NCBI RefSeq assembly: GCF_900112575.1
Contig: NZ_FOMH01000012.1
Location: 1 to 64,000, forward strand
Length of the DNA: 64,000 bases
Reading direction: 5' to 3'
Origin: Flavobacterium phragmitis
GTDB taxonomy: Bacteria > Bacteroidota > Bacteroidia > Flavobacteriales > Flavobacteriaceae
The notes under the pieces were generated by a model. That model was not told the DNA's origin and ran no database searches. It saw nothing but the letters and a program-made list of their open reading frames with translations. This document shows positions 32,560-35,909 of this stretch, piece by piece (position 1 is the first letter of the stretch; each line of letters opens with the position of its first letter). The position numbers and the translations under genes are program-made.

Positions 32560-32614
32560 GATTTAAGTTTAATTTGATTTGAGGTTATTTAAATTTTGCT
32601 ATAACTGCATTGTT

Positions 32615-32714
32615 TGTCATTTCGACGAAGGAGAAATCACACTAGAAATTCCGCAAAGTATGTCGTCAATCTTTGTCGATTTCCGAGTGTGATTTCTCCT
32701 TCGTCGAAATGACA
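32615..32714. repeat. Palindromic repeat element, copy 3 (GTCATTTCGACGAAGG type)
   Basis: A 100 bp element with perfect 29 bp arms: tgtcatttcgacgaaggaga from 32615 to 32643 and its complement from 32686 to 32714. The loop ccgcaaagtatgtcgtcaat is the reverse complement of the loops of copies 1 and 2, although the arms differ from theirs. Confidence 0.9.
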
Positions 32715-32829
32715 TAAAATGAGAATAGAATACAAAAACAAATATAAATTTTCTTTGCTAAAATTCTAAAACATCAAAGCATTTTCTCCTTCCACAATCA
32801 TAAAATTATGCTAAATAAATTTCTCTTAA

Positions 32830-34280: not shown

Positions 34281-34515
34281 TTTTTTTTTAAGATACAAAG
34301 GTTCAAAGGGATAAAGTTTTTCCTTTGAACCTTTGTTATTTTCTACCATGCAGGTTTATATTCAAATCTGTGTATATCTGCTGAAATCTTTTAAAATCTG
34401 CGTGAAATAATTTTGCGCATCGATTTTTCACTCAGATTTATACAAATTAAGCAGATCAAATTAGATTTTATTTATTGTATTTCAGCTAACGGATCAAAAG
34501 TTAGTACAAAACATT
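34281..34515. repeat. Dispersed repeats between the OYE gene and the tyrS leader
   Basis: Contains caaaggttcaaagggataaa with an inverted copy tttcctttgaacctttgtta, and fragments such as gctgaaatcttttaaaatct and ctcagatttatacaaattaa. No gene is seen. The inverted copy can serve as the 3' end of the OYE transcript. Confidence 0.5.
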
Positions 34516-34523
34516 TATCTTTG
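34516..34523 (+). promoter_or_regulatory. -7 box of the tyrS leader transcript
   Basis: TATCTTTG matches TAnnTTTG exactly and ends 5 nt before the ATG of the leader ORF, so transcription should begin at or beside that ATG. No good -33 TTG is visible at the usual spacing. Confidence 0.6.
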
Positions 34524-34528
34524 CAGTC

Positions 34529-34639
34529 ATGAAATTCTTGAACAACATATTACGCCTTCCATTTTTCAGCACTTATTATTATGCAATAATATCTGCTCGG
34601 ATAGGCTATGCATATAATTCAACGTATTCACAACTGTAA
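34529..34639 (+). CDS. Tyr-rich leader peptide of tyrS (36 codons)
   Basis: ATG at 34529, TAA at 34637. It begins MKFLNNILRLPFFSTYYYAI and contains six Tyr in 36 residues: a run of three (codons 16-18, 34574-34582) and single Tyr at codons 27, 29 and 33. It is placed between a -7 box and a strong terminator that precedes tyrS. The layout is that of a transcription-attenuation leader: scarcity of charged tRNA-Tyr would stall the ribosome on the Tyr codons. A possible antiterminator exists: gctcgg at 34595-34600 can pair with ccgggc (34671-34676) of the terminator's 5' arm. The leader function is inferred; the Tyr codons and terminator are directly visible. Confidence 0.7.
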   Translation: MKFLNNILRLPFFSTYYYAIISARIGYAYNSTYSQL

Positions 34640-34665
34640 ATTAAACAGATAAATTATATAACCTT

Positions 34666-34696
34666 AAAGCCCGGGCATTTTGTCCGGGCTTTTTTA
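34666..34696 (+). terminator. Attenuator terminator in front of tyrS
   Basis: Stem aaagcccgggca (34666-34677) and tgtccgggcttt (34681-34692), 12 bp with one G-U pair and a TTT loop, followed by a T-tract. It ends about 11 nt before the tyrS ATG, so full-length transcription of tyrS requires read-through. Confidence 0.88.
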
Positions 34697-34706
34697 TTTT
34701 AAAAAA

Positions 34707-35909
34707 ATGGAAACAATTCAAAAACTTAAAGAAAATGCCACCATCTTCCTTCCTGAAAATGGTTTGGAAGAAAAATTAAATCAGGTTGCAAAAGAAAACA
34801 GAAAACTGATTATCAAAGTGGGATTTGATCCTACTGCACCTGATTTACATTTAGGACATGCTGTTGTATTGAAAAAGCTAAAACAATTTCAGGATCTCGG
34901 ACATCAAATTGTAATTGTAGTGGGAAGTTTTACCGCACAAATTGGCGATCCAACTGGTAAAAACAAAAGCAGAAAACCATTAAATGAAGAAGAAGTACAA
35001 CACAATGCTGCTACATACATTTCGCAATTATCAAAGATTATTGATGTAGAAAAAGCGCAAATCGTTTTTAATTCTGATTGGCTTGATGCGCTTTCTTTTT
35101 CTGAGATTATTCAGATCATGTCTAATGTTACGGTTGCTCAATTAATGCACAGAAATGATTTTAATAAACGTTTTACAGAAAATACCCCTATAGCCATGCA
35201 CGAATTGGTTTACCCTATTCTGCAGGGATTTGATTCAGTAAAAATCAATGCAGATATTGAAATGGGTGGTACCGATCAGCTTTTTAATTGCACAATGGGA
35301 AGACAATTGCAGGAAAATTTTAAAATGCCTGCCCAAATTGTAATGTGCATGCCTTTGTTGAAAGGTCTTGACGGAAAAGAAAAGATGAGTAAATCACTTC
35401 ACAATACCATCGGTTTAATTGATGAACCAAATGAAATGTTTGGCAAAACGATGTCAATTCCGGATAATCTTATTTTGGAATTTCTAGAATTGACAACCGA
35501 TTTTTCATTCAAAGAAAAACTGGAAATAAAGAAAAGGCTGGAACTAGAGAATCCGATGGACATCAAAAAGCTAATTGCAAAAAATATCATCAGACAATAC
35601 CATGATCAAAATAGCGCTGAGGAAGCTGAAAGATTCTTTGTCAATCAATTTCAAAATAAAAATGCAGAAGCCAAATCATTTACCTCGGTTATGATTTCTT
35701 CTTTAGAAAACGAATCCAATCAAATTGCCTTAATTGACCTTTGTTCGTTAATTAAAAATGATATTACAAAATCGGCAAACAGAAGATTGATTGAAAGCGG
35801 TGCCGTTCAGATTAATCAGGAGAAGATTCTAAATCCATACGAGTTGGTTCCGCTAATCAAAGAGACCAAAATCAAAATCGGAAAAAGAAATTTTTATGAG
35901 TTACTTTAG
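34707..35909 (+). CDS. tyrS: Tyrosyl-tRNA synthetase
   Basis: A 400-residue class I aminoacyl-tRNA synthetase starting at the ATG after the attenuator (METIQKLKE). The frame open further upstream has no ATG and crosses the terminator. The HIGH-type motif is PDLHLGHAVVL and the KMSKS motif is GKEKMSKSL. Substrate-pocket elements are the Tyr-binding GFDPTAPDLH and GGTDQLFN. The C-terminal S4-like RNA-binding domain is SANRRLIESGAVQINQEK. It matches the TyrZ-like type rather than the long TyrS subclass in spacing, which is a weak judgement. It is regulated by the leader described above. Confidence 0.96.
   Translation: METIQKLKENATIFLPENGLEEKLNQVAKENRKLIIKVGFDPTAPDLHLGHAVVLKKLKQFQDLGHQIVIVVGSFTAQIGDPTGKNKSRKPLNEEEVQHNAATYISQLSKIIDVEKAQIVFNSDWLDALSFSEIIQIMSNVTVAQLMHRNDFNKRFTENTPIAMHELVYPILQGFDSVKINADIEMGGTDQLFNCTMGRQLQENFKMPAQIVMCMPLLKGLDGKEKMSKSLHNTIGLIDEPNEMFGKTMSIPDNLILEFLELTTDFSFKEKLEIKKRLELENPMDIKKLIAKNIIRQYHDQNSAEEAERFFVNQFQNKNAEAKSFTSVMISSLENESNQIALIDLCSLIKNDITKSANRRLIESGAVQINQEKILNPYELVPLIKETKIKIGKRNFYELL

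Follow-up and report, generated by a model that had tools for sequence, protein, structure and literature searches.

T-box elements, which bind tRNA directly, and ribosome-mediated attenuators, found before genes of housekeeping enzymes such as pheST, are both points of comparison for the locus described here; an auxiliary synthetase gene that was studied by Vecchione and Sello, reportedly in Streptomyces coelicolor, is a further one. According to the accessible text of PMC1262725, classical attenuators precede the aminoacyl-tRNA synthetase genes pheST in gamma-proteobacteria and trpS and leuS in Streptomyces. Auxiliary or duplicated synthetase genes have been described as well. An antibiotic-resistant auxiliary tryptophanyl-tRNA synthetase (TrpRS) gene is under ribosome-mediated transcriptional attenuation (Vecchione and Sello 2010, cited in PMC4787780), and the hisS paralogues of bacilli, hisZ and hisS*, carry His leader peptides (PMC2965389, main text). 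In Bacillus subtilis, tyrZ is the second tyrosyl-tRNA synthetase (TyrRS), and it is subject to T-box and MarR control (Williams-Wagner 2015, cited in the available portion of PMC9437257). Finally, amino-acid operons with leader-peptide attenuators are found in F. psychrophilum, where the -7 box spans -12 to -5 and 5.5% of the mapped mRNAs are leaderless (accessible text of PMC9723704).

Here, we describe a locus of Flavobacterium phragmitis in which a short Tyr-rich open reading frame (ORF) and an intrinsic terminator precede a gene that we call tyrS2, a name coined in this analysis. In the following, the window is the whole stretch of 64,000 nucleotides that was analysed. The element upstream of the accessory tyrS2 is very probably a ribosome-mediated attenuator of the classical type with charged tRNA-Tyr as its signal, to which the nascent peptide may contribute. 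As far as the cited texts describe them, the attenuators of pheST, trpS and leuS are of the same class and also stand before synthetase genes, but concern other amino acids and other phyla. The TrpRS gene is likewise an auxiliary synthetase gene under ribosome-mediated attenuation, and hisZ and hisS* are likewise duplicated synthetase genes preceded by a cognate-codon leader peptide and a terminator; these differ from tyrS2 in amino acid (Trp and His, respectively) and in phylum. Like tyrS2, tyrZ encodes a second TyrRS under a tRNA-sensing RNA, whereas the sensor of tyrS2 would be the translating ribosome. A literature search returned no description of this tyrS2 leader element and none of Bacteroidota synthetase genes under leader-peptide attenuation; the survey of synthetase attenuation by Lopatovskaya (2010) may list related cases. 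A word search of the main text of PMC2965389 found no tyrS, Flavobacteri- or Bacteroid-.

The amino-acid attenuators of F. psychrophilum, as far as described in the same accessible text, and a leader before hisG share with the tyrS2 element the clade, the Bacteroidota promoter, a cognate-codon leader ORF and a terminator. The genome of the window itself carries such a His leader, MISIQLHHHHLHYCSQAMC, which is accompanied by a terminator and stands before the hisG that was matched at 89195 (L219, G000:C19). Including this genome, His leaders were found before hisG at 27 of the 30 loci fetched (L199-L228). The His-codon leader in the same genome indicates that such attenuation is established in the clade.

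The features of the locus are collected in Table 1. A preliminary description of this DNA, made from the letters only, had already named the -7 box, the leader ORF beginning 5 nt after it, its 36 codons with six Tyr codons (three of them consecutive) and the 12-bp terminator stem with its T-tract before the synthetase ATG; all of these were found again at their places. The leader region folds with a z-score of -3.98, and none of 200 shuffles was equally stable. A search of the 64-kb window against Rfam gave no match at the gathering score of any family, the T-box among them, and a T-box or riboswitch was ruled out by this absence. Directly 3' of a flavin oxidoreductase gene, at 34295-34336, lies a 17-bp stem with a T-rich tail that is probably the terminator of this gene; in that case, the leader would belong to a separate transcription unit. 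Further upstream, an intergenic inverted repeat of 51 nt (32608-32721, arms 86% complementary and 12 nt apart) is the source of mirror-image ORFs on both strands and resembles an interspersed palindromic element.

Table 1. Features of the tyrS2 leader locus of F. phragmitis, in window positions.
Feature	Position	Strand	Basis
-7 box TATCTTTG, Bacteroidota sigma-A promoter	34516..34523	+	motif match; predicted +1 ~34528
Leader peptide ORF MKFLNNILRLPFFSTYYYAIISARIGYAYNSTYSQL, 36 codons	34529..34639, stop TAA 34637-34639	+	kept in 85/85 examined tyrS2 loci
Leader codons 2-15, putative nascent-chain segment	34532..34573	+	amino-acid-level conservation
Tyr codons 16-18, putative regulatory codons	34574..34582	+	16 and 17 invariant across loci
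Predicted hairpin 1:2, hides region 2 in ribosome-free RNA	34554..34606 (34554-34580 with 34585-34606)	+	folding model
Region 2, antiterminator 5' strand TGCTCGG	34594..34600	+	position conserved, covariation
Region 3, antiterminator 3' strand CCGGGCA, part of terminator 5' arm	34671..34677	+	covariation
Intrinsic terminator	34666..34695	+	12-bp stem 34666-34692, T-run 34690-34695
tyrS2, accessory tyrosyl-tRNA synthetase, 400 aa	34707..35909	+	TIGR00234; HLGH, KMSKS

The regulated gene is an accessory second tyrS and not the housekeeping tyrS. The control of tyrS proposed in the preliminary description is supported in outline, with the correction that the gene is that of a second, accessory TyrRS. 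The product of tyrS2 scores 337.1 bits against TIGR00234 (cut-off 113.8), and compared with solved structures it matches TyrRS chains best. Regarding the class I signatures, H[IL]GH is present in 85/85 TyrS2 sequences and KMSKS in 84/85. Another TyrRS, 33% identical to TyrS2 over the matched part, is encoded elsewhere in the same genome, and its tyrS has no such leader within 350 nt. Short ORFs with two adjacent Tyr codons (YY) were found within 350 nt of none of 22 housekeeping-type tyrS loci (the genome's own and the 21 that were parsed of 25 from relatives, L007-L031), by which control of the housekeeping gene was ruled out. No YY-bearing short ORF was found either at 27 TyrRS genes of 43-46% identity from other classes (L172-L198).

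The tyrS2 type was detected in five of 120 genomes searched as relatives, the window genome included, the other four copies being 94, 76, 76 and 75% identical; all five genomes also carry the other TyrRS type. Within the genus, three of 73 genomes have it. In a class sample of 395 genomes a match at E 1e-60 was obtained in the window's genome only, and in a phylum sample of 395 genomes a copy at least 75% identical was present in three. In the latter sample, 269 further genomes pass E 1e-60, among them those of the 27 TyrRS genes mentioned above; among the matches listed, these are about 39-46% identical and belong to other classes.

Conservation of the leader was assessed at 85 loci, namely the best 80 of 200 confirmed candidates from a scan of a sequence collection with TyrS2 and five whole-genome loci. 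These are partly non-independent, as L099 includes L006 and Chryseobacterium accounts for more than half of the loci; 62 of the 85 are distinct in their first 17 codons. The leader is present at all 85 loci with the consensus M-K-x-L-N-x-I-L-R-L-P-F-F-S-x-Y-Y, and its start codon is ATG in 83 and GTG in two. Each leader has between two and six Tyr codons in total. The conservation check in relatives thus came out in favour of the element: Tyr at codons 16 and 17 is invariant (85/85), and the terminator was scored at 84/85 loci, the last one (L123) having the same hairpin with one mismatch. Stalling had been proposed on a run of three Tyr codons. For the Tyr pair this fits well, whereas codon 18 is Tyr in only 30 of the 85 leaders. 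As in known attenuators, there is a leader ORF with clustered cognate codons, and its N-terminal half evolves like coding sequence. In four short Chryseobacterium leaders (L141, L136, L075 and L114), the ORF has 27-29 codons and ends soon after region 2, which may alter the timing of ribosome release.

The reverse search, starting from the peptide, led back to tyrS2. In its own genome the leader was found once. With the peptide alone, a search of 149 family genomes gave two strong matches besides the window (E 8.5e-10 and 1.5e-6); each is followed by tyrS2 motifs, at a distance of 282 and 293 nt from the start of the leader. The match ranking next (E 3.1e-4) has no tyrS2 motifs in its locus and is probably due to chance. 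Similarly, a leader profile run on the 395 phylum genomes, with at most 23 candidates scored per genome, gave matches below E 1e-3 exactly in the three genomes whose tyrS2 is 75% identical or more.

Concerning the promoter, a strict TAnnTTT[GA] motif is located within 40 nt upstream of the leader in 78 of the 85 loci, versus 31 of 680 background windows. In 77/85 loci the -7 box ends 4-9 nt before the start codon, and this spacing supports the leaderless mRNA proposed in the preliminary description. Applying the F. psychrophilum box spacing, transcription in the window would begin at the position listed in Table 1, with a 5'UTR of about 1 nt, and the box-to-start distances predict 5'UTRs of about 0-5 nt across loci. 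The leader mRNA is probably near-leaderless. The His leaders differ in this respect: only two of 27 have the -7 box within 9 nt of the start codon, whereas 24 have a box ending 17-35 nt upstream and one lacks a strict box.

The substitution pattern divides the leader ORF into two parts. Calculated over the 62 distinct sequences, dS and dN are 0.66 and 0.13 for codons 2-15 and 0.64 and 0.06 for the ten core codons (4, 5 and 7-14). Parsimony on the 85-tip TyrS2 tree gave 49, 36 and 140 changes at the first, second and third positions of codons 2-15, and in the ten core codons 126 codon changes were accompanied by 28 amino-acid changes. RNA pairing alone was ruled out as the cause of this conservation, since third positions vary and residues stay constant. 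The second half was analysed in a Chryseobacterium-type set of 48 leaders, chosen for R-S-G after codon 17, a choice which itself removes changes at those three codons. In this set, codons 19-29 show 36, 28 and 23 changes by position against 13, 12 and 64 in codons 2-15 (Fisher p 1.2e-9), and 54 codon changes in codons 19-29 produced 51 residue changes. Additionally, the alignment shows 2 nt missing just upstream of region 2 in these leaders, so that region 2 is kept as RNA and read in a different frame. Altogether the substitution pattern indicates that the first half of the leader is kept as peptide and the second half as RNA, and RNA pairing is accepted here as the likely basis of the conservation from codon 19 onward. 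In the first half some RNA-level constraint is likely as well, because third positions in the Chryseobacterium type change about half as fast (64 changes over the 14 codons 2-15) as in tyrS2 (8.85 per codon).

Protein-level selection on the N-terminal half would also be expected if the ORF were a functional micropeptide gene with the terminator as its ordinary 3' end and tyrS2 were transcribed from another promoter. We consider this very improbable: the C-terminal half is free of protein-level selection and differs in frame between clades, a complement to the terminator arm is retained in a fixed position downstream of the Tyr pair (see below), and strong leader matches were found only upstream of tyrS2.

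The two RNA helices were examined in a covariation alignment of 34 of the 85 sequences, picked for spread. In the terminator 97.9% of cells are paired and four pairs changed on both sides, a number reached by 5 of 500 shuffles; in further pair types, the terminator does not exceed the shuffles. The pairing of GCTCGG (34595-34600) with CCGGGC (34671-34676), named in the preliminary description, proved to be real and extends to the 7 bp of TGCTCGG and CCGGGCA, with one G-U pair. This helix 2:3 is conserved in position and covaries: 88.2% of cells are paired, and neither this value nor the covariation score was reached by any of 500 shuffles. At column pair 72-161, 17 sequences have CG, 16 have UA and one has UG. 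This split falls mostly between two clades, so that the independent covariation events are few. Three pairs show double changes, which 69/500 shuffles match, and the end pairs 70-163 and 77-156 each fail in 16 of 34 sequences. Controls with slid partners gave 11.8-46.3% paired cells for helix 2:3 and 23.1-53.4% for the terminator.

The geometry is likewise conserved. At 75 of 84 loci, the sequence most complementary to the terminator 5' arm starts 10-16 nt downstream of the Tyr pair and extends to 19-22 nt from it. At the remaining nine, a stronger complement is located 3-10 nt after the pair, and GTTCGGG is retained in the usual position as well. All 85 loci have the motif G[CT][TC]CGG between +11 and +24 relative to the Tyr pair. 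In single sequences the complementarity of region 2 is only moderately unusual (p < 0.05 in 44/61, median 0.035, dinucleotide shuffles). Short ORFs are common, a 10-kb stretch here being overlapped by 71 ORFs with a length of at least 30 aa, so a Tyr-rich ORF could come to stand before an unrelated terminator by chance; with leader conservation at 85/85 loci, the covariation, the fixed geometry and the complete lack of YY short ORFs at the 22 testable housekeeping-type loci, we give this practically no credence.

To describe the effect of the ribosome, a footprint from -18 to +12 around the A-site was blocked and the transcript was folded up to the terminator loop for 61 distinct sequences, as equilibrium folding rather than kinetics. 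In this model the antiterminator probability exceeds 0.5 in 61/61 sequences with the A-site at codons 15-17, in 56 at codon 18, in 11 at codon 19 and in none at codons 20-25. The loss after the Tyr pair follows from the location of region 2. With three alternative footprints, codon 16 gives 60, 61 and 57 of 61, and 0/61 is reached by codons 21, 19 and 20, respectively; the fall is thus shifted by about one codon. At codons 6-14 the antiterminator is already predicted in 48-55 of the 61 sequences. In the model, the Tyr pair is therefore the last, and not the only, permissive ribosome position, the permissive span being codons 6-18. As in a classical attenuator, the predicted antiterminator and the terminator are mutually exclusive, the 5' strand of the former being free with the ribosome at the cognate codons and covered once it is past them. 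The switch proposed in the preliminary description, in which a stall frees the antiterminator and passage restores the terminator, was reproduced in this way.

Two other ribosome states were modelled. In the ribosome-free RNA, the predicted antiterminator exceeds 0.5 in 30/61 sequences with a mean of 0.49, the F. phragmitis window having 0.01. Pairing of region 2 upstream, in hairpin 1:2, has a predicted probability of 0.84 in the window and a mean of 0.22 over the 61 sequences. Both values suggest that termination by default in untranslated RNA is not general. Once the ribosome is beyond region 2, the predicted antiterminator rises again, in 17/60 sequences at codon 27 and in 32/53 at codon 31, so that the outcome there must depend on timing.

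From these observations the following mechanism can be proposed. As the promoter position suggests, RNA polymerase would start at or next to the leader start codon, giving a ribosome immediate access to the 5' end. With ample charged tRNA-Tyr, this ribosome would pass codons 16-17 and cover region 2; according to the folding model, the terminator would then form and tyrS2 would be off. When charged tRNA-Tyr is scarce, due to tyrosine shortage or to a housekeeping TyrRS that fails or is inhibited, the ribosome would stall on the Tyr pair. Region 2 would then remain available for pairing with region 3, which forms the loop-side portion of the terminator 5' arm, and the model predicts read-through into tyrS2; the pairing itself is backed by covariation. 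The benefit to the cell would be that the backup enzyme is, apparently, made only when charged tRNA-Tyr runs short.

The role of the conserved peptide deserves closer attention. Amino-acid conservation upstream of the putative stall site, as in arrest peptides, was found here, and codons 2-15, which evolve like protein, may encode a nascent chain that tunes or strengthens the pause. Taken further, the same conservation would suit a nascent-peptide sensor, TnaC-like or Erm-leader-like, in which the 15-residue chain in the exit tunnel arrests the ribosome in response to a small molecule. Candidates would be free tyrosine, a tyrosine analogue or an inhibitor of TyrRS or the ribosome; the Tyr pair would be the place of arrest and not the sensor, and the arrest would free region 2 in the manner described above. 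If codon 16 occupied the A-site, residues 7-14 would be placed immediately behind the P site. The His leaders of the clade differ from the tyrS2 leader in having 14-20 codons and in reaching their His run at codon 5-8 (27/27), hence with no long preceding chain, and their short prefixes differ between families as judged by eye; with 4-7 residues, these prefixes are a weak comparison. A TyrRS as the downstream product, and the fact that the only residue-invariant codons in all 85 leaders are both Tyr, fit charge sensing directly. The fixed prefix could equally serve general pausing strength, and such a sensor has no known ligand. Overall, we regard it as unlikely.

Charge sensing as the preferred reading can also be combined with a contribution of the chain. 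In this hybrid sensor, a near-leaderless attenuator, the nascent chain L-N-x-I-L-R-L-P-F-F-S would prime the ribosome and two Tyr codons would then suffice for a decisive arrest dependent on Tyr-tRNA. We put this forward tentatively, as an idea with somewhat less than even chances.

Leader and tyrS2 seem to form one unit that has moved between lineages. In the TyrS2 tree, a Sphingobacterium copy groups with one from Vaginella (support 0.966), and the two resemble each other in their leader tails. Two further copies, L076 from Chryseobacterium and L005 from the genus of the window, are placed near this pair and not with their own genera, though they are less well supported (0.387 and 0.74). In 16 neighbourhoods inspected by eye no common neighbour was seen beyond close relatives, and a shared operon or conserved neighbourhood was consequently discarded as a clue to function. 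A plasmid origin was rejected as well, as the four plasmid records with a relative at E 1e-100 are all below 60% identity. The large Pantoea dispersa plasmid NZ_CP106661.1 encodes at 150681-151844 a TyrRS 49% identical to TyrS2, a possible hint at wider transfer of this synthetase type.

In conclusion, the element would be a well-supported example of a TyrRS gene under leader-peptide attenuation, and for a backup TyrRS the Bacteroidota would have in it a ribosome-based equivalent of the T-box of Firmicutes. Peptide-level conservation before the putative stall site and the near-leaderless start are its unusual features. The conserved prefix makes it testable whether attenuator leader peptides use the nascent chain besides the codons. 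If the hybrid sensor is true, classical attenuation and arrest-peptide control would be joined in one mobile unit that carries a backup TyrRS. Finally, the near-leaderless start would be a natural reporter for the translation of leaderless mRNAs in bacteria that do not rely on Shine-Dalgarno sites.
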